Below, one piece after another: positions 5,042 to 27,100 of a stretch of DNA of 28,773 bases. The position numbers and the translations under genes are program-made. The stretch is from a virus: positions 1-28,773 of IMG/VR virus record IMGVR_UViG_3300030099_004062. One strand, written 5' to 3'. Each line of letters begins with the position of its first letter. Position 1 is the first letter of the stretch. Below the pieces are notes generated by a model. It was not told where the DNA came from. It saw only the letters and a program-made list of their open reading frames with translations, and did not search any database.

Positions 5042-5264
5042 TGAGTTAATAAAAGTTGCAAAAGAACCTATTATAGACTTTGGTCCAGATATTTCAGCTG
5101 ATAGGTTAAAAAATGCAGCTGCTACAAAAAAATTAGCTATATTTGATGCTTTTGAAATACTTTCAAAAATCAATGAAGAAGAAAATATTATAGAAGGTAA
5201 AGTAGAACAAGAAACTAAAAAACCAAAAGAATTTAAAGGTTTTGCAGAAGGGAGGTCTAAATAA
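4986..5264 (+). CDS. Putative terminase small subunit (92 aa)
   Basis: A small helical protein directly upstream of the large terminase, with the stop and start sharing one base (TAATG). Residues 1-30 are basic and helical. Residues 38-65 (SADRLKNAAATKKLAIFDAF, then EILSKINEEE) form a second long helix, and the tail is charged. The size, helical content and position fit a DNA-recognition small terminase subunit, but I see no clear helix-turn-helix, so this rests mainly on context. The start overlaps the GroES-like gene by 56 bases. A later start is unlikely, because no other methionine occurs in the frame. Confidence 0.5.
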   Translation: MEVKKIKRNIIQAGRIAVDELIKVAKEPIIDFGPDISADRLKNAAATKKLAIFDAFEILSKINEEENIIEGKVEQETKKPKEFKGFAEGRSK

Positions 5265-7474
5265 TGTATAAGCAAGAATTATACAAAGTATTAAAAAATC
5301 ATATAAAGCCTAAAATACTTAAACAACAAAATAGATATAAAAAGTGGAAGTATGGTTATAACAAAGAGCATGATATAATTGTTATAAGTAAAACAGGTGA
5401 AATAGGTGAAATATACGAAATACAAAACTTAAAAATAGCTTTACCATTAGAAAAAAATACTCATAAATTTTCAGAAGATAAATGGGAATACACGCCGTTA
5501 CCTAAAGAACTAAGGCGAATAAAAACTATATTTGACTGGGAGGAATATCCTTTAGATTTCAAAGAAACATGGTATGATTATATAGATGAAGAATTTAATC
5601 GTAGAGAAAAAGGTTTTTGGTTTTATAACAAAGGTAAGTCAACATATTTAACTGGCGGTCATTATATGTATTTACAATGGAGTAAAATTGATGTGGGTAA
5701 ACCTGATTTTAGAGAAGCAAATAGATTATTTTTTATATTTTGGGAAGCTTGCAAGGCAGATCCTAGATCTTACGGCATGTGTTATTTAAAAAATAGACGT
5801 TCTGGTTTTTCATTTATGGCATCAGGTGAAACTGTTAATTTAGCTACATTAAACTCTGATTCAAGGTACGGTATATTATCTAAATCAGGACCAGATGCTA
5901 AAACTATGTTTACCGATAAAGTAGTGCCTATATCAGTTAACTATCCTTTTTTCTTTAAACCTATTCAAGATGGTATGGATAGACCAAAAACTGAATTAGC
6001 ATATAGGGTTCCTGCTACAAAATTAACTAGACGAAAACTAACTGCTAATGAAGCTACTACTGAGCTTCAAGGTCTAGATACAACTATTGATTGGAAAAAT
6101 ACAGGAGATAATAGTTATGATGGTGAAAAATTAAAACTATTAGTACACGATGAATCTGGTAAATGGGAAAAGCCAAATAATATTCTTAACAACTGGCGAG
6201 TAACAAAAACAACATTGCGATTAGGTAGTAGAATTGTTGGAAAATGTATGATGGGTTCAACATCAAACGCTTTAGATAAAGGTGGTAGAAATTTTAAAAA
6301 ATTATACGATGACTCAGATGTTACACAAAGAAACGCCAATGGACAGACTCGCTCGGGATTATATAGTTTGTTCATACCTATGGAATGGAACTACGAAGGA
6401 TACATTGATTCTTATGGCATACCTGTATTCGACACTCCAAAACAAGCCGTTCAAGGACCGCAAGGAGAAGATATATATTTAGGTGTAATTGATTATTGGC
6501 AAAATGAAGTTGATGGTTTAAAGGAAGATGCTGATGCTTTAAATGAATTTTATAGACAATTTCCAAGAACTACAAAACATGCTTTTAGAGACGAATCTAA
6601 GTCTTCTTTATTTAATTTAACGAAAATTTATCAACAAATTGATTACAATGAAGATATAAGTAGTAAAAAATTAATAACACAAGGTAATTTTCAATGGGAA
6701 AGTGGGATTAAAGATAGTAGGGTTATATTTTATCCAAGTAATCAAGGAAGGTTTTTTATTACATGGATTCCTGATAATATAATACAAAATAGATATATTG
6801 AAAAAAATGGTGTTAAATACCCAGGTAATGATCACATGGGTGCTTTTGGATGTGATCCATACGATATATCTGGAACAGTAGATAAAAGAGGTTCTAATGG
6901 TTCTTTGCATGGTTTAACTAAATTTAGCATGGAAAATGCTCCTGCTAATCATTTTTTCTTAGAATACATAGCTAGACCTCAAACCGCTGAAATATTTTTT
7001 GAAGATGTTTTAATGGCTTGTGTGTTTTATGGAATGCCAATACTAGTAGAAAATAACAAACCAAGACTTTTATATCATTTTAAACGAAGAGGATATAGAG
7101 GTTTTGCAATGAATAGACCTGATAAAATTTGGAATAAATTATCAGTTACAGAAAAAGAAATAGGTGGTATACCTAATTCAAGTGAAGACATAAAACAAGC
7201 TCACGCTGCAGCTATAGAATCTTATATAGAAACTATGGTTGGATTTAATGGTGATTCTTATGGAGATGTATATTTTCAAAGAACACTAGAAGATTGGGCT
7301 AGGTTTGATATAAATAATAGAACTACTCACGATGCATCAATTAGTTCTGGTTTAGCTTTAATGGCTTGTAATAAGAATAGATATGCACCAGTAAGTAGAA
7401 GAAAAAGAGAGCCTATAGAATTAGGTATAAAGAAATACAACAACAGCGGTTTAGTTTCAAAAATAATTAAATAA
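5264..7474 (+). CDS. Terminase large subunit (DNA-packaging ATPase/nuclease)
   Basis: This 736-residue protein would pump phage DNA into the prohead through the portal and cut the concatemer. The ATPase half shows TYLTGGHYMYLQW (127-139), a degenerate Walker A at 177-184 (NRRSGFSF), Walker B at 292-297 (LLVHDE, with the catalytic Glu) and a coupling motif GSTSN (331-335). The nuclease half has an RNase H-like arrangement: GCDPYD at 529-534 (Asp531), ILVENN at 593-598 (Glu596) and a late Asp690 in TTHDASISSGLAL. Length is at the large end for phage terminases. The start follows a GGGAGG sequence at 5250-5255, the only good Shine-Dalgarno match among the window's genes. The portal gene begins immediately after the stop. 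Confidence 0.93.
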   Translation: MYKQELYKVLKNHIKPKILKQQNRYKKWKYGYNKEHDIIVISKTGEIGEIYEIQNLKIALPLEKNTHKFSEDKWEYTPLPKELRRIKTIFDWEEYPLDFKETWYDYIDEEFNRREKGFWFYNKGKSTYLTGGHYMYLQWSKIDVGKPDFREANRLFFIFWEACKADPRSYGMCYLKNRRSGFSFMASGETVNLATLNSDSRYGILSKSGPDAKTMFTDKVVPISVNYPFFFKPIQDGMDRPKTELAYRVPATKLTRRKLTANEATTELQGLDTTIDWKNTGDNSYDGEKLKLLVHDESGKWEKPNNILNNWRVTKTTLRLGSRIVGKCMMGSTSNALDKGGRNFKKLYDDSDVTQRNANGQTRSGLYSLFIPMEWNYEGYIDSYGIPVFDTPKQAVQGPQGEDIYLGVIDYWQNEVDGLKEDADALNEFYRQFPRTTKHAFRDESKSSLFNLTKIYQQIDYNEDISSKKLITQGNFQWESGIKDSRVIFYPSNQGRFFITWIPDNIIQNRYIEKNGVKYPGNDHMGAFGCDPYDISGTVDKRGSNGSLHGLTKFSMENAPANHFFLEYIARPQTAEIFFEDVLMACVFYGMPILVENNKPRLLYHFKRRGYRGFAMNRPDKIWNKLSVTEKEIGGIPNSSEDIKQAHAAAIESYIETMVGFNGDSYGDVYFQRTLEDWARFDINNRTTHDASISSGLALMACNKNRYAPVSRRKREPIELGIKKYNNSGLVSKIIK

Positions 7475-9868
7475 ATGAATATTACAACAAACTACTCTAG
7501 TACTTTTCCTAGTCAGACAGTGCCTGATGCCGAAAAAGCTACTCCCGAATACGGTAGGCAAGTTGCTCAAGCTATTGAAACAGAATGGTGGAGACAAGGA
7601 GGTAATGGTACACGTTTCGCGTTATCTTATAACTTATTTCATCAAAGAAGATTATATGCTAAAGGCGAACAACCAGTTCAAAAATATAAAGATGAATTAT
7701 CTATAAATGGTGATTTATCATATCTTAATTTAGACTGGAAACCTGTACCTATTATAGCTAAATTTGTAGATATTGTTGTTAATGGTTTATCTAATAAAGA
7801 TTATGAAATAAAAGCGTTTGCTCAAGATCCAGTAGCGTTAAAAAAGCGAACTGATTATGCTACAGCTATAATGCAAGATATGGCAGCTAAACCTTATCTT
7901 GATGGTTTGCAAGATACTTTAGGTCTAGATGAGTATCAAACTGATAAAGCAAAACTGCCTGAATCTAAGGAAGAATTAGATTTACACATGCAGCTTTCTT
8001 ACAAACAATCAATTGAAATTGCTGAAGAAGAAGTTATAAATAATGAACTTAGCAAGAATAGATTTGAAAATATTAAAAGAAGATTTAATCAAGACTTAGT
8101 TACATTAGGTATAGGCGCTGTAAAAACTAGCTGGAATAAAGCTAATGGAGTAACAGTAGATTATGTCGATCCAGCTTATTTAATATATTCTTACACAGAA
8201 GATCCAAATTTTGAAGATATATATTATGTAGGTGAAGTTAAAGCAATGACTATACCAGAGGTTGCAAAAAGATTTCCTGGTTTATCAGAAGCAGAATTAA
8301 CTAAAATACAAGAAACTCAAGGTTATAGTTCTCAAACTATGTATGGTTGGCAGACCTATGATCCTAATACAGTGCAGGTATTATTTTTTGAATATAAAAC
8401 TTATAATACTCAAGTTTTTAAAATAAAACAAACTGATCAAGGTTTACAAAAAGCATTAGTAAAAGATGATCAATTTAATCCACCAGAAAATGAAAACTTT
8501 GAAACAGTTTCTAGAAAAATAGAAGTATTATATCAAGGTGCTAAAATCATAGGTAATAATCAACTTATAGAATGGAAGTTATCAGAAAATATGACAAGAC
8601 CTTTTTCTGATACAACTAAAGTAGAAATGAGTTATACTATTTGTGCGCCTCGCATGTACAAGGGTCGTATTGAAAGTTTAGTTAGCAGAGTTACTGGATT
8701 TGCAGACATGATCCAAATAACACATTTAAAACTACAACAGGTTATTGCTAGAATGGTTCCAGATGGCGTGTTCCTAGATATGGACGGACTTGCAGAAGTA
8801 GATTTAGGTAATGGAACTAATTATAATCCAGCAGAAGCATTAAACATGTATTTTCAAACTGGTAGTATAGTTGGTAGATCATTAACTCAAGAAGGTGATA
8901 TGAATCCTGGTAAAGTACCTATTCAAGAACTTCAAACGTCTAGTGGTGGAGCTAAAATACAAAGTTTAATACAGACATATCAATATTATTTACAACTAAT
9001 AAGAGATGTGACCGGATTAAATGAAGCAAGAGATGGTAGTTTGCCTGAAAAAGATACATTAGTAGGTTTACAAAAAATGGCTGCCAATGCTTCTAACACA
9101 GCTACTAGACATATTTTAACTGCAAGTTTATGGTTAACACTGAGAACATGTGAAAATATTTCTCTTAAAATAGCTGATTCATTAAAAGATCCTTTAACTT
9201 TAAACTCTTTAAAAAATTCTATTTCTACTTATAATGTGGGTACATTAAGTGAAATACAAAATCTTTCTTTACATGATTTTGGTATATTCTTAGAATTAGA
9301 ACCAGAAGAAGAAGAAAAAGCTATGCTAGAGCAAAACATACAAATGTCTCTACAGCAGGGTGGAATAGATTTAGAAGATGCAATTGATATTAGACAAGTT
9401 AAAAATTTAAAACTTGCTAATCAAATGCTTAAGCAAAAAAGAAAGCAGAAGCAAAAACAAATGCAAGAAGCTCAGCAAGCTAATATAAAAGCACAAGCAA
9501 ATGCAAATGCAGAAGCTAGTGAAAGGCAAGCTCAAGCTGAGATGCAAAAACAGCAAGCTTTAACCGCATCAAACGTGCAATATGAGCAAGCTAAAAATCA
9601 AATGGAAATACAAAGACTTCAAACTCAAGCTCAATTAGATATGCAAAAAATGCAAATGCAGCATGAATTAAACATGGAAATTGAAAAATTAAGAGTTGAA
9701 GCTATGAAAGAAAAAGAATCTTTTATTGAAGATAGAAAAGATAAAAGAACTAAAATGGAAGGTACACAACAAAGTAGAATGATTGAACAAAGAAATTCTA
9801 ACGGTTTACCTGTAAATTTTGAACAAGAAAGTCCTGGTATGTATAGTGGTACCGCGGATATTAATTAA
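7475..9868 (+). CDS. Portal protein
   Basis: This 797-residue protein begins on the base after the terminase stop and is the expected dodecameric DNA gate at the packaging vertex. The typical portal pattern 'TGLNEARDGSLPEKDTLVGL' followed by QKMAANASNTATRHI lies at about residues 512-547. The N-terminal third has the usual mixed alpha/beta wing and stem. From about residue 608 onward the protein is a long Gln/Lys/Glu/Ala-rich helical region (QMLKQKRKQKQKQMQEAQQ, then repeated QMQ/EIQRLQ units to about 745). This suggests a coiled-coil barrel of the kind known in P22-type portals. The length fits large podovirus portals. Confidence rests on motif, size and position between terminase and capsid genes. 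Confidence 0.9.
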   Translation: MNITTNYSSTFPSQTVPDAEKATPEYGRQVAQAIETEWWRQGGNGTRFALSYNLFHQRRLYAKGEQPVQKYKDELSINGDLSYLNLDWKPVPIIAKFVDIVVNGLSNKDYEIKAFAQDPVALKKRTDYATAIMQDMAAKPYLDGLQDTLGLDEYQTDKAKLPESKEELDLHMQLSYKQSIEIAEEEVINNELSKNRFENIKRRFNQDLVTLGIGAVKTSWNKANGVTVDYVDPAYLIYSYTEDPNFEDIYYVGEVKAMTIPEVAKRFPGLSEAELTKIQETQGYSSQTMYGWQTYDPNTVQVLFFEYKTYNTQVFKIKQTDQGLQKALVKDDQFNPPENENFETVSRKIEVLYQGAKIIGNNQLIEWKLSENMTRPFSDTTKVEMSYTICAPRMYKGRIESLVSRVTGFADMIQITHLKLQQVIARMVPDGVFLDMDGLAEVDLGNGTNYNPAEALNMYFQTGSIVGRSLTQEGDMNPGKVPIQELQTSSGGAKIQSLIQTYQYYLQLIRDVTGLNEARDGSLPEKDTLVGLQKMAANASNTATRHILTASLWLTLRTCENISLKIADSLKDPLTLNSLKNSISTYNVGTLSEIQNLSLHDFGIFLELEPEEEEKAMLEQNIQMSLQQGGIDLEDAIDIRQVKNLKLANQMLKQKRKQKQKQMQEAQQANIKAQANANAEASERQAQAEMQKQQALTASNVQYEQAKNQMEIQRLQTQAQLDMQKMQMQHELNMEIEKLRVEAMKEKESFIEDRKDKRTKMEGTQQSRMIEQRNSNGLPVNFEQESPGMYSGTADIN

Positions 9869-20442: not shown

Positions 20443-22050
20443 ATGGCTTTAACTATAGACGTAAACTATTTTAATTCCTTTTATCTAAAAAGAGTTTATG
20501 GAACAGGATTAGCAGCTTTTCCTGGCGATGCTTTTGTGCCTGGTAATATACCTTACGCTTTTGAGCAAGGTTATCTGCCTACATCTGCATCTTCTGGACC
20601 AGCAAGTAGTTTTAGAGTATGGCAAACAAGTAATATTGATTTGGCTACTGGTGTCCCATATTTTAGATTTAATACGTTTTCTGGTTCAACTGAATTAGAC
20701 TGGTGTATTGAAGAATCTAGAATTAGAGGTGGTTTTAATAATACTAGTGTAGACTTTGGAGTTAAAGCTTACATCGTAGAAGATAATCCAAACCAACAAA
20801 GATTATCTAACACTGTAATTTATTCTGGTATTTTTAATGCTAGAACTGGTATAAACAATACAAATCAGTTTAGTGTCGGTGAAGAAATAACTAGAGGTGT
20901 AGATCCAGTTGGTGGAACTATACAAAGATTATATGCTGAAGATACTAATTTAATAGTGTTTCAAGAAAGAAAAGTAAATGTAGCTTTAATAGATAAAGAC
21001 GCTATATTTACTGCTGAAGGATTAGGTATTAGTACTACAGGAAAACAAGTTATAGGTCAAATAACTCCAGTACCAGGTAATTGGGGTATTGGTAAAAACC
21101 CTGAATCATTTGCTGTTTACGGTTATACAAAATATTTTGCAGATAAAGAGCAAAATGCTGTATTAAAAATGGAAGGCACAAATGTTCAAGAAATATCTGT
21201 AGCTGGAATGACAGACTTTTTTAGAGATAGATTCAATGAATTAGGACCAACAGGTAGATTAGTAGGTGGTTATGATATATATAATAAAAACTATGTATTA
21301 TCTATACAAAATTCTAGCGATATTGTTAGTTCTACATCAGCAGAATCACAAGATATTATAAACAATACGGTAGATTTAACAGGTGAAACACCAACTGGTT
21401 ATACTTTATCATGGGACGAAAGAGTTAAAGGGTGGACAAGTTTTGCAACATACACGCCTAATAATATTTTTAGTTGTATAGGTAAATTTTATTCAACTAA
21501 TTTTGGAAGAGTATATGAGCATTACATCAACACGTCTAGAAATAGTTTTTATAATATATCTAAACCATCTATAGTTCAGTTTGTATTTAATCCTGAACCT
21601 AATATTGTTAAAACATTTAAAACAATAAACTACGAGGGTAGTAATGGTTGGGACGTGTTAAGTATACAGTCAGATAATACAGGTGAAATTGAATATCCAA
21701 TAGGCTCTGGTGTTTATAGAAATTATAACGATGATGCTACTGGTGAGGTAAGAGAGGCTGACGGTGCTGGTTCAGGTGTGGTGTATAATCAAATATATAG
21801 TTACCAAGAAGGAGCATATTCAGAAAATGGAATTCAGTATAGAGCAGGATTTGATAGAAAACAAAATAAATATTACGCAGTGATACCTAATAACACACAA
21901 GATCCTATACCGGGAGAAGTTATATGGGGTAATCAAACCATGGGAATAAAAGGATATTATACAACTGTAACTATGAGTACAGATCAATCAACAAATGTTG
22001 GCGGGCCAAAAGCATTATTTGCCGCTAGCAGTGAATTTATAAATAAATAA
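20443..22050 (+). CDS. Beta-propeller-like tail protein, P22 gp10-like type (535 aa)
   Basis: Residues 160-182 (GTIQRLYAEDTNLIVFQERK, then VNVALIDKDAIFTAEG), 207-236 (VIGQITPVPGNWGIGKNPES, then FAVYGYTKYFADK) and the repeated strand-turn-strand pattern match my recollection of gp10-type tail accessory proteins that fold as a beta-propeller below the neck. It starts 36 bases after the 1656-residue gene. The region AVYGYTKYFADKEQNAVLKM looks like a propeller blade in which the protein reports its own state through tightly packed strands. It lacks Shine-Dalgarno and membrane features. In some phages this and the preceding protein could correspond to parts of one tail hub. A search against structures is needed for an exact role. 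Confidence 0.7.
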   Translation: MALTIDVNYFNSFYLKRVYGTGLAAFPGDAFVPGNIPYAFEQGYLPTSASSGPASSFRVWQTSNIDLATGVPYFRFNTFSGSTELDWCIEESRIRGGFNNTSVDFGVKAYIVEDNPNQQRLSNTVIYSGIFNARTGINNTNQFSVGEEITRGVDPVGGTIQRLYAEDTNLIVFQERKVNVALIDKDAIFTAEGLGISTTGKQVIGQITPVPGNWGIGKNPESFAVYGYTKYFADKEQNAVLKMEGTNVQEISVAGMTDFFRDRFNELGPTGRLVGGYDIYNKNYVLSIQNSSDIVSSTSAESQDIINNTVDLTGETPTGYTLSWDERVKGWTSFATYTPNNIFSCIGKFYSTNFGRVYEHYINTSRNSFYNISKPSIVQFVFNPEPNIVKTFKTINYEGSNGWDVLSIQSDNTGEIEYPIGSGVYRNYNDDATGEVREADGAGSGVVYNQIYSYQEGAYSENGIQYRAGFDRKQNKYYAVIPNNTQDPIPGEVIWGNQTMGIKGYYTTVTMSTDQSTNVGGPKALFAASSEFINK

Positions 22051-22052
22051 TT

Positions 22053-22781
22053 ATGCCAATAGATCCAGTTTCAGCTGCCATAGGTATTGGAGGAAGTGTT
22101 CTTTCCGGTATATTTGGAGGCAGCGCAGCTAAACGAGCAAAAAGAAAAGCTCAGAAAGAAGCTCAAAGATTAAAAGGAAAACTAGAGTTTTTAGAAAATA
22201 ATCGCCAAGCTATTATTAATCCTTATGAAGGAGCGACAGACTTGTCTAGTATGGCCACTGATTATTCTTCTCAATTTAGTAATCCTTATGCTAACCTATC
22301 AGTTGCTACTCAAGCTGCTGAAATGAAAATAGAACAAACTGATATAGCTTTAGCTAATACACTTGATACTTTAGCTCAAACTGGTGGAGGTGCTGGTGGC
22401 GCTACAGCATTAGCTCAAGCAGCTGCAGCAAGCAAGAAAGAAGTTGCAGCCAGCATAGAGCAACAAGAAGCTGCAAATGAAAAAATGAGAGCTGAAGGAG
22501 AGGCTAGATTAGAAGATAAAATAATAGCTGAAAAACAAAGAATAGAAGGAATAGAAATGAGTCAAGCAGAAAGAATGCAAAATCTAGATGCTCAAGGTCA
22601 ATTATTCCAGTTTCAGCAAAAAGAAAACAGAGAACAACAAAAAATCGATAGAACAGCTGCTGAACTTGATAATGCTAGGATGATGGCTGCTCAAGCACAA
22701 GCTGATCAAACATCTGCATTTACAGGTATGTTAGGTGGTATTACTGATACTTTATCAAGCGCATTCACTCCAAAATCATAA
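22053..22781 (+). CDS. Internal virion (ejection) protein, small, T7 gp14-like position (242 aa)
   Basis: The N-terminus (residues 3-26) is a glycine/alanine-rich hydrophobic segment with GxxxG-type spacing (VSAAIGIGGSVLSGIFGGSA), suited to membrane insertion after ejection. It is followed by a basic patch (KRAKRKAQKEAQRLKGK) and a helical body rich in Ala, Gln and Glu. The middle contains NPYANLSVATQAAEMKIEQT and ALANTLDTLAQTGGGAGGAT, which I recall from internal virion proteins of marine podoviruses. The C-terminus has a second short hydrophobic segment. It sits first in a three-gene series of growing size, as gp14, gp15 and gp16 do in T7. A role in the trans-envelope ejection channel is inferred from this. 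Confidence 0.75.
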   Translation: MPIDPVSAAIGIGGSVLSGIFGGSAAKRAKRKAQKEAQRLKGKLEFLENNRQAIINPYEGATDLSSMATDYSSQFSNPYANLSVATQAAEMKIEQTDIALANTLDTLAQTGGGAGGATALAQAAAASKKEVAASIEQQEAANEKMRAEGEARLEDKIIAEKQRIEGIEMSQAERMQNLDAQGQLFQFQQKENREQQKIDRTAAELDNARMMAAQAQADQTSAFTGMLGGITDTLSSAFTPKS

Positions 22782-22784
22782 ATT

Positions 22785-24134
22785 ATGTCATATACAAGTC
22801 CAAAATACACATATATATCTAGTCAATCTGCTTTTGATGAATTAAGAAGATCAGCTACTGGTGCGGCTAAAACTATTGCTGATAAAAAAGCTACTGCAGC
22901 TAAAGAAAAGAAAGCTGAAGAAGAAAGAAAAAGACAGATTAATGAATCAAGATTAGCTTTAGGTAGAGGTGCTACTCAAAAATATTTAAACTCTTTAGTA
23001 TCAAACTCTACTGGAGGAGCTAAAGAACAAGGAGCAATAGAAGAATACTTTAAGGGCACGGGTAAAAGAGTTGGTGAATTAACTATGCGTACTCAAGGTG
23101 TTAGTCCAGTTTGTGAAACAGAAGGAACTTGTGATGCTGATATGGCTGAATTAGCAAGATTAGAAGCTAGACCAGCACAGGTAAAAGAATTAACAGAAAA
23201 CATGTTAGATCAATTAGATTATAGCGATATAAAAAACATAGATCCTAATCAACCTGGTAATTTCTTTTTAGCAGCAAATATATTAAAAGGTGCAGTTGGT
23301 ACTGATCCTGACTCGGGTTATTCGTATAGTTTAAGAACAAATGAAAAAGGTGGTACTGATTGGGTTTTTACTTTTGATGAAGCTAAAGCTAGAGAAAGTT
23401 TTAAAGACAGTGATTTAACAGAAGAGCAGATCAATGAACAAATAGAAGCTATGAAATTTGATAATGGTGCTAATGAATTTGTAATAAATAGTGAAGGTTT
23501 AGAAACCGCTGCAAGAAACGGTGGTAGTGTTTTTGTTGATACACCTGAAATTACTAATGATGTAAATGAAGTTTATGCTGACACACAGTTGTTTGGGGGT
23601 ATTAAATTTGATGACAAAGGTAATTTAGTTCCTGGAAGTGGTATGTTTGATATGTCTAGATTTTTAAAAGGAGTTAAACCATACTATACTTATGATAATG
23701 ATGGTAAAAAAATATTAAGTTATGAAGGTGTAGTAGATAAACAAGAAATTGCACGTGATCCTGCTTTTAAAACGCAGATAAAAAGAAAAATTGAAGAATA
23801 TTTAAAGCCAGAAAATAGTGGTGAAATGACAGCTTTGTGGAACATGACATTGTCTGGTCATTCATATGATTGGGACGAAAATGAAATAGCTAAAGAAATG
23901 AACTTTGAAACACCTGAAGATATGAGAGCCGCGTGGGATTATGGCGAGATAACTCCTACAATGAAAAAGGTTTTTGCTAAATACTATACACAATATATGA
24001 TTGATGATGCAGCCGCCACAATGAATTCAGCTAGTTTTCAACAATATAGACGTACTTCTCAGATACGTGATTTAGGTTTTCAAAATCAAGAAACTGATTT
24101 TATCATAGATAATGATGAAGTCTACCAAGGATAA
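22785..24134 (+). CDS. Probable internal virion protein (449 aa)
   Basis: Residues 10-55 are a highly charged helix (KTIADKKATAAKEKKAEEER). The rest is hydrophilic and mixed, with a C-x4-C pair at residues 111 and 116 (VCETEGTC), acidic DNDG/NDND stretches and a tyrosine-rich C-terminal region. It has no signal peptide, membrane helix or recognised enzyme motif. Its start lies three bases after the previous stop. Placement between a small membrane-active protein and a giant internal protein suggests it is carried inside the capsid or neck, but this is position-based. Confidence 0.65.
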   Translation: MSYTSPKYTYISSQSAFDELRRSATGAAKTIADKKATAAKEKKAEEERKRQINESRLALGRGATQKYLNSLVSNSTGGAKEQGAIEEYFKGTGKRVGELTMRTQGVSPVCETEGTCDADMAELARLEARPAQVKELTENMLDQLDYSDIKNIDPNQPGNFFLAANILKGAVGTDPDSGYSYSLRTNEKGGTDWVFTFDEAKARESFKDSDLTEEQINEQIEAMKFDNGANEFVINSEGLETAARNGGSVFVDTPEITNDVNEVYADTQLFGGIKFDDKGNLVPGSGMFDMSRFLKGVKPYYTYDNDGKKILSYEGVVDKQEIARDPAFKTQIKRKIEEYLKPENSGEMTALWNMTLSGHSYDWDENEIAKEMNFETPEDMRAAWDYGEITPTMKKVFAKYYTQYMIDDAAATMNSASFQQYRRTSQIRDLGFQNQETDFIIDNDEVYQG

Positions 24135-24145
24135 AATAATTTAAT

Positions 24146-27100
24146 ATGACTAGATACGTTCTGCCAACAGGTAAAACATTTCGTGTTCCTGATGATAAAC
24201 TTGAAAAATTTTTACAAGAATATCCAGACGCAGTAAAACAAGAAGCTAATCAAGCTAGCGAATCTAATATAGCTGGTCAACAAATTGGTCAAAAAGTTAC
24301 TAGATTTTTTAATGAAGAAGGTAAATCTATAAGAGTTAGAGATAAAGATTTAGATAAGTTTAGAAAAGAAAACCCTGGTTATATGACAAGGGAAGAAATA
24401 GAAAAACAAATTGCTGATTATAAAGATCAAATAAAAAAAAGTAAACAAAAAGAAAAGGAAAGAAAAGCCAAAGCCGAAGAAGATAGAAGAATATATGAAA
24501 ATAGAATTAAAGAAGGTTTTGCCAAGCATAAAGGAGAAGAGTTAGGTGGGAGTCAAACTCACAAGCAAAAAGCAGCTTATAATAAATGGATAAGCGAAAA
24601 TAATCCTTCTATAGAAGAAATGGAAAAATACCTTAATGACAATAATTTTGATTATGTTATAAAAGGTGGCGAACAAGATAAAGGTGGTACTATAGGCGAT
24701 GAAATAGAAGCTATAGGTAGTGGTCTTTATATGGCTTTAGATAGGTTTCTTGGTGATTTTAATTTTAGCAATATACAACAAAACTATATCAGTGGAAAAG
24801 CATTATCAAAAGTAGATCAAAAAAGAGAAAGAGAAATATTAGAATACGATCCTAATCTATATAATACAAAACGTGCTGAATATTTTAAAGAAATAGAAAG
24901 ATTACAAAAAGAGCAAGAATTATTAGAAAAAGATAGTGAAAAATACAATCAATTACAAGATCAAATAAATCAGACTAAGGCTGAAATACCTAGTGAATTT
25001 AAAGTATATAAACAAATAGAGGTAGAAGATGCTTTTGATCAATATGATAACTTAGTTGGAGCAACATTACAAATAGGTAGTGATGGTGAAGGTAGAGGAA
25101 TGCTTGGTGGTAAAAATCAAAAACTATTAAATGAAGACGGAACATTTAAAGATTTTGATGATGCTTTTACTAAAGAAGAATTATCACAATATTCTGATGC
25201 AGATATAGAAATGTTTAGAGAATTACATGCTATCAACCAAGATATGCATAGTTTAGATACTTTAGTCGATCAATTTAAAAGTGAAACTGGTTTAATTGAT
25301 AGTGGTCGTGGCGAGGTGCTTGAAAAAATACTTACTGAAAATGAAGATAAAATAAATGAATTATCTGAGAAATATAATTTTGAAGTTGATGATTTTAAAA
25401 GAGAGATACAAGCAAACAATATGGGTATTTTTAATGGTGACACCAGCGCGTTATTTAAAGATGCTAGAGACAAAGTAGCTCAAGATTACGATACCGTAAT
25501 GGAGGAAAAAGGTTTTGTTAGAGATAATTGGATGGATGATGAGTATGTAAAAATAGTTTTTGATGAACAAGGTTATAGACCAACAGATGAAGAAATTGAA
25601 TACATAGGGGGTAAAAAATTAGCTGTAGATTTTAATCCAGCAGCTATTGCTCAATACAAACAATATTTAAAACCTTATGAAACTGAGTTACAAAGTTTAA
25701 TTAAAAATGTAAGAACAGCTAGCACAACTACAGGTAGTGAAGAAGATATATTAGCAGATGACGCTAGAGTAGCTGAAGGTGAAGCTAAAGTACAAGCTGT
25801 AATAGATAATGCTTATATGGACGCTATAGGCCAAGACCCTCAGATAAGATATATAATGAATGGTTTAGTTGACAAGGCTAAGCCAGAATTAGACGCTTTA
25901 CAAAAAGAATATCAAGGTTTAATAAGTCAAGCTAATTCACAAGATGAAGTTGTTAAGTTAAATTTAGAGTTAGAAAATAAGCAAAACGAATTAGTAATAG
26001 GTAAGCTTGTCATGGATCCTAAATATAAAAAGCGAGCTACTGAAATAGGTATGGCTTTTGGTGAAATAGGTAAAGAGTATAATATTGATTTTACTAGACA
26101 ACAAAGTGGTTTTACTAGATTCATGGATAGTATATACGATAGAAAAGACTTTGACTATTATAATCCTTTAGAGTGGGCGGCTGAAACAATTAATGCTTTT
26201 GGAGGCGGTGTTGAAGGTATAACTACAGCTATTGGTGATCAGGCGGTTGCTAGTTTTAGTGGTTTTATGGTTCGTAATAGAGATAAAAAAATAAAAGCTC
26301 TTGAAGAAAAAATTAAATCAGGAGATATAGAGCCTACAGAAGATGTTTATTGGGATGAGTTTGATCAAGAGTGGAAAACTGGATATGAAGGTGATTTTGA
26401 TTTAGGTTTTGGTTTTTCAGGAGAAAATATAGTTGGTGATTATGATGCTAGATCTCAGTTAGAAGATATGAAATCTAACAAAAACTATTGGATTAATTCT
26501 ATCGAAAAACAAATGACTGAAATGGCTAGATCTTCTAAAAGACTAGAAGGTTATGGTGGTGCTGATTATACTGATGGTGTTAGTTTAAAAGATGTTTTTC
26601 AAACAGTTGGCCAAACATTACCACATATTGGTATGGCCGCAGCAGGTACAGCTTTAGCTCCATTTACTTCTGGTACTTCTTTAGCACCAGTTGCTACAGT
26701 TTTAGGATACGCTGGAACAGTTGCTATGGGATTACAAATGTACGGTGATAATTACAACTCAGCTTTAGAAGAGTATATAACTTTAAATGGTAAAGGTAGA
26801 GACAGTATAAGAGCTAGAATACAAGAAGAAAATCCAGATTTAAATGAGCAAGAGATAACTACTTTAGTAGAAGAAGAGTTTAAAGACAACATGATTCAAG
26901 CTTACATATCAGGTGATGGTGCTAATATCGCTACATCAGCGGCTATAGCTGGAGCTCAAACATTGTTAGAAAAATTTGGTGCAGAACAATTAGTAGGTAG
27001 CTTTCAAAAAGCAGCGGGATTACAAAAAGTTATTAGTAATAGTCCAATGAGAGGTTTAACAGCTGCAAATATGTGGCAAGCAACATGGGACGATGTAGGT

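Follow-up and report, generated by a model that had tools for sequence, protein, structure and literature searches.

Gene organization of the locus

The window, by which we mean the whole analysed stretch of 28,773 nucleotides, is part of the genome of a flavobacterial crAss-like podophage. The phage type is identified by the genes for the terminase large subunit and the portal protein (positions 5264-9868; PHROG 6681 and 6547) and by the muzzle protein (20443-22050; Pfam crAss_MUZ_C, E=1e-9), which also provided the anchor for fetching relatives. These genes and all features of the window described below lie on the plus strand. Downstream of the muzzle gene the same module encodes a 242-aa protein (22053-22781), recognised by its relatives and by a position like that of T7 gp14, and a 449-aa protein (22785-24134), referred to as mid, which directly precedes the last gene of the virion module. 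This last gene starts at 24146 and runs open to 28771 and beyond, encoding a giant protein that begins MTRYVLPTGKTFRVPDDKLEKFLQEYPDAV and comprises 1542 aa up to the end of the window. Its complete homologue in the related locus L001 has 2995 aa, and by this length and its gene position the protein belongs to the very large multidomain proteins of virion modules. The order muzzle, small, middle and giant protein parallels gp44-gp47 of crAss001 (cf. PMC10172136), and in the cultured relatives phi38:1 and elemo the position of the giant is taken by gp101 and gp18, respectively, both annotated as structural.

A duplicated unit at the N-terminus of the giant protein

The giant opens with two related units, copy 1 (residues 1-33, 24146-24244) and copy 2 (residues 51-81, 24296-24388), which are connected by a linker (residues 34-50, 24245-24295). 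A sequence-only reading of the window had proposed a gapless duplication of residues 9-27 (GKTFRVPDDKLEKFLQEYP, 24170-24226) and 59-77 (GKSIRVRDKDLDKFRKENP, 24320-24376) with a spacing of 50 residues, and our analysis confirms it. The two segments are identical at 10 of 19 positions and align with a BLOSUM62 score of 49, while the best score in 500 shuffles of residues 1-90 is 31, so that none equals the observed value. The pair is also the top self-match within the whole 1542-aa protein. When the entire protein is shuffled the best of 40 trials scores 50, and it is thus the local test that gives the duplication its significance. Four IMG/VR homologues (L001-L004) retain both copies, with pN values of 0.02 and 0.04 (0.036 for copy 2), while the linker (residues 32-50) drifts with a pN of 0.28 and a pS of 0.29.

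AlphaFold2 predicts a strand-strand-helix(-strand) arrangement for copy 1 (strands 2-5, 11-14 and 30-32, helix 19-25) and strand-strand-helix for copy 2 (strands 51-55 and 61-65, helix 66-75), with pLDDT values of about 83-86 for both copies and below 50 for linker residues 35-47. The two segments are thereby assigned the same predicted fold. A family profile built without the window scores copy 1 with 41.7 bits. Copy 2 is not recovered by this profile, and in an ungapped PSSM comparison its score is matched by 362 of 5000 shuffles, which marks it as a divergent relative that is recognisable mainly via copy 1. The tandem that the sequence-only reading had singled out as a clear case to test therefore holds with regard to conservation and predicted fold, and is weaker with regard to family membership of its second unit. 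Judged by sequence profile, copy 1 is a canonical member of a phage-wide family of about 30-residue units, which we call tag A.

A DNA block over copy 1 (24138-24254) is near-identical among the homologues including synonymous sites. Here pS is 0.04 (residues 1-31) compared to a gene median of 0.34, and blastn identities between homologues range from 96.6 to 99.2%. Either recent exchange of the tag or a constraint acting on the DNA could account for this. The near-identity of the window with L001-L004 also spans about 8-12 nt before the ATG, and the rest of the gene differs.

Tags of classes A and B are N-terminal and virus-specific

Starting from the giants of 80 IMG/VR crAss-like loci, we find that most of these proteins open with a unit of 30-40 residues, which falls into several classes and is followed by a low-complexity linker. 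Tandem duplication at the N-terminus is not limited to one class, and 8 of 57 non-redundant giants exceed the 99th percentile of 796 internal segments. The tag A profile gives no significant internal match in 1249 ORFs comprising 645,567 aa. A first, stricter DNA pattern for tag A matched the window's own homologues only; in the subsequent pattern scan of IMG/VR, every match lies within residues 8-38 of a long ORF, six spurious short ORFs excepted. Among 37 pattern matches in 257 Gb of cellular genomes one is genuine, and it is phage-like. The class B tag shows the same N-terminal and phage-restricted behaviour.

Carriers of tag A are the last and largest proteins of otherwise unrelated phages, namely crAss-like phages, a phage with T7-like gene order (L100) and gut Bacteroides phages. 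In T7-like phages it is the protein at the gp16 position that opens with the tag, and further carriers are a 2560-aa protein in L117, the giant of a gut phage, and gp3 of Bacteroides phage BS-TP4, a polyvalent protein of 5391 aa with ddrB-ParB, pyrophosphatase and helicase domains. BS-TP4 was also the only useful match in direct tblastn searches of INPHARED with the window tag, tag consensus sequences and the giant. The suggestion that similar units begin other large phage proteins is thus borne out, and the profile search proposed along with it returns strictly N-terminal, virus-specific matches whose carriers are giant virion or ejection proteins at the end of their module. Searches of Pfam, PHROGs and PDB sequences assign the tag to no family, and tags A and B are not detected in crAss001 gp45-gp47, gp49 and gp50. 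Copy 1 (24164-24244) and five other tags align with positions 1-33 of Pfam PF23162 (AEP_C962R), with scores short of the curated threshold (best E 8e-4).

Tags are exchanged between giants

The giants of L042 and L076 have bodies that are 59-60% identical over about 2200 aa and carry unrelated tags. Conversely, identical tags are found on unrelated bodies (L187 compared to L061, L181 and others). Among pairs of giants with similar bodies, the tag is kept in 14 of 16 cases in which both phages have the same mid family and in 0 of 10 cases in which the mid families differ, i.e. mid is replaced together with the tag. Over all loci, the similarity of the muzzle and gp14-like proteins shows a correlation with the tag close to that of whole mid proteins, and a Mantel test on whole-protein similarities gives a weak tag-mid association that is not specific to mid. 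Because other neighbours track the tag about equally well, whole-protein similarity alone identifies no partner.

The C-terminal peptide of the upstream protein tracks the tag

A more local signal is found at the very end of the upstream protein. In tag A phages its tail carries the motif D[DEP]?[FYW]xx[YF] at 19 of 33 loci, compared to 2 of 961 background ORFs and 0 of 76 proteins upstream of other tags. For a held-out test on new tag A variants, the threshold was fixed ahead of the scans at more than 30% of the new clusters. The strict motif is present at 23 of 41 new loci and in 3 of 9 new clusters (p=7.5e-7), narrowly above this threshold; the looser core [FYW]xx[YF], which was defined after the new data had been seen, occurs in 7 of 9 clusters (p=1e-5). 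Taken together, 42 of 74 tag A loci have a D-[FYW]-x-x-[YF] tail, against 0.2% of background ORFs. The motif is absent at some tag A loci, e.g. L022, L099 and L124.

Across 134 loci, covariation with the tag is seen in the last 14 residues of upstream proteins that are otherwise unrelated (p=0.0002), with p<=0.02 in 20 of 20 one-per-cluster picks and p=0.0098 when tag A is left out. Five phages with two tags have doubled tails (L147 with EDFSQYEVTSDDDFSQYEVK, L210, L239, L200 and L114); when counted by cluster, there is no significant link between the number of tags and the number of tail motifs (p=0.5).

In the window itself, mid ends TDFIIDNDEVYQG, and its last 14 residues (ETDFIIDNDEVYQG, 24090-24131), the proposed docking peptide region, deviate from D-[FYW]-x-x-[YF] and fit the motif only loosely. 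A tentative alternative is SFQQYRRT (mid residues 417-424, 24033-24056), which contains the looser core and lies about 25 residues before the end. As the tag of the window is canonical and the tail upstream of it is not, our confidence is lower for the window than for the family. Many mid N-termini read M-[SG]-[AY]-Y-x-N-P (MSYTSP in the window, 22785-22820) and another group starts with MENKN, which possibly represents a further docking element.

Predicted fold of the tag

The tag fold is predicted to be a BRK/GYF-like β-hairpin plus helix. Among the chains ranked by Foldseek, BRK domains take ranks 1-3 and 6 as structural neighbours of copy 1. The best of them, BRG1 (6sy2), is a weak match that superimposes with 1.8 Å over 38 residues and a Z-score of 4.4, a value typical of a common arrangement, and Foldseek returns no significant PDB match for the tag (E about 2). 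GYF domains are peptide-recognition modules, and BRK domains resemble them and have been proposed to bind peptides (PMC7096718). The predicted β-β-α(-β) arrangement of the tag may be set beside the β-β-α-β fold of BRK, and its proline before the helix and the aromatic residue within the helix beside the BRK AP motif and Trp. BRK domains are known from eukaryotic chromatin proteins (CHD7/8, BRG1). The tag has no BRK signature at the level of sequence profiles, 0 of 18 tag members matching PF07533 at E<=5. The GYF signature (Gly-Pro-Phe/Tyr, Trp) is likewise absent from the alignment of 18 tags, and there is no Pfam GYF match. When an artificial read-through fusion of tail and tag is modelled, the tail placed beside the tag rises to a pLDDT of about 74 with a two-residue bridge, a gain that, with six sequences, is no more than suggestive.

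A proposed docking model for consecutive ejection proteins

Sequence comparison establishes the tag family with its N-terminal position, its swapping and tandem copies, and its covariation with the peptide that ends the upstream protein. We consider it probable that this reflects physical docking of the giant, by its N-terminal domain, onto the C-terminal peptide of the ejection protein encoded before it. According to this model, the small β-hairpin and helix module on the giant ejected protein would act as docking domain for a short linear peptide that terminates the upstream ejection or cargo protein, mid being the proposed partner in the window. Within the virion the pair would tie the giant to the protein before it, the cargo might be loaded, ordered and ejected as a chain, and a second tag copy could offer a second attachment point. 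The sequence-only reading had suggested a capsid-targeting or docking tag without naming a partner. Its docking part is supported by the upstream peptide; its capsid-targeting part is not, and for the giant RNA polymerase of phage N4 the encapsidation region has been reported to lie at the C-terminal end (PMC5512222).

A signal of this kind could also arise if the tag and the adjacent 3' end of the upstream gene recombined together without any interaction of the proteins. The distance from the tag to the upstream stop codon, which ranges from -4 to 22 nt with one outlier of 101 nt and is thus usually within about 20 nt, would allow a single recombination event to move both, and tags clearly do move between phages. 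The tag DNA of the window is near-identical in otherwise diverged phages (pS 0.04), and some pairs, such as L098 and L113, share a longer C-terminal segment of mid. However, in the 134 loci only the last 14 residues carry the signal, and the two adjacent 14-residue segments before the tail show no tracking (p>0.5; none at -28 to -15). Moreover, conserved tail residues use the same codon between clusters at a frequency of 0.63 against 0.55 expected. Such near-random codons show that the tail is conserved at the protein level and kept by selection, which argues against recent hitchhiking. Finally, one tail motif recurs with unrelated upstream proteins of crAss-like (PEDFSIYKVN), T7-like (EPDPFEAYL) and Bacteroides phages and of a gut phage (EDDYESYIID), and we regard co-transfer without interaction as improbable.

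The tag and the tail might instead dock independently onto a third component, i.e. the portal, the core, the capsid or a host factor, and both adapt to it. The crAss001 cargo protein gp45 has segments that bind to the portal and to the inside wall of the tail (PMC10172136), and the weak correlation of the muzzle and gp14-like proteins with the tag would fit such a scenario. Against it, crAss-like and T7-like phages, different as they are, have tag and tail motifs in common, and no third protein was found whose tracking of the tag is as local as that of the upstream tail, making a common third partner unlikely. Least plausible, and in our estimate very improbable, is that the unit directs the giant into the head as a capsid-targeting sequence or propeptide, perhaps to be cut off by a prohead protease. 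T4 internal proteins carry such N-terminal sequences, and the unit described here is N-terminal on virion proteins as well; against this explanation, the unit of 30 residues looks folded, occurs in tandem copies and many interchangeable classes, and tracks the tail of another protein.

Returning to direct docking of the tag onto the upstream tail, we somewhat favour the broader view that class-specific pairs of tag and peptide constitute a general, interchangeable docking code that links consecutive ejection proteins in short-tailed phages and enables swaps of cargo. Candidate pairings are tag A with D-[FYW]-x-x-[YF], a class B subgroup with LP[IV]xK, and another with DPLNPN. In phi38:1 (L011, 25759-32498), gp101 opens with a duplication, ELDEFGIPVKK / ELDEFGIPLKK, that is similar to the LP[IV]xK tails found elsewhere, and the C-terminal helical segment of gp100 bears a loose resemblance to class B tags. 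A reversed polarity with the domain on gp100 and the peptide on gp101 was considered, but is not supported by the class B profile, which misses gp100.

Comparison with known systems

Our literature search found no account of docking domains in phage ejection proteins. A related arrangement is known from nonribosomal peptide and polyketide synthases, where β-hairpin docking (bhD) domains pair with short linear motifs (SLiMs; PMC9113145, PMC6195595). As in these systems, a small N-terminal hairpin domain sits on a giant multidomain protein, its putative partner is the C-terminal peptide of the subunit before it (<15 residues in bhD systems), and several interchangeable classes exist; at the sequence level, tag and tail thus appear to share the bhD architecture of an N-terminal domain and an upstream C-terminal peptide. 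The folds differ, bhD being α-β-β-α-α and the tag, as predicted by AlphaFold2, a smaller β-β-α(-β) without the leading helix. In addition, bhD pairs operate in synthases, whereas tag and tail belong to proteins of the virus particle and would bind each other there.

T7 gp14-gp15-gp16 and crAss001 gp45-gp47 follow the same idea of order, small, middle and giant last. In podophage ejection cores, consecutive cargo proteins are stacked in the virion, and docking through a tag and a tail is not described for the cores of T7 and crAss001 (PMC11784390, PMC10172136); the structure of crAss001 leaves the larger part of its giant cargo without resolved density (PMC10172136). The giants also resemble polyvalent proteins, which are large, multidomain, packaged and injected, and for which the excerpted text describes no N-terminal docking unit (PMC5512222).

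If the model is correct, it would bear on the question of how phages load very large proteins into the head and expel them in sequence. A pair of peptide and mini-domain would be a concrete hook for giant cargo that can be tested with peptides, swaps of plug and socket would account for the mosaic pattern in which giant injected proteins are exchanged, and the tag could serve for loading chosen cargo into particles of harmless laboratory phages.

Further observations on related loci

Several features of the relatives were noted in passing. The giant at L025:14079-20939 has a second class B tag at residues 123-150, i.e. a widely spaced tandem. A class-B-like hairpin (YEIDGQNYSAEQL...) followed by predicted coil is found at about residues 70-145 of proteins resembling head scaffolds in L162, L166, L168, L182 and L197. 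In the C-terminal half of the L001 giant (L001:10001-18988), the sequence FDLDDTLALT and a later DDS suggest a phosphatase domain of the HAD type. At the N-terminus of the MW202828 giant (L010:741-12320), a different unit (TAHSLFEAQGYTKGLDAF) occurs twice as a strong tandem; the annotation of this protein as reticulocyte binding/rhoptry protein is probably a misannotation.
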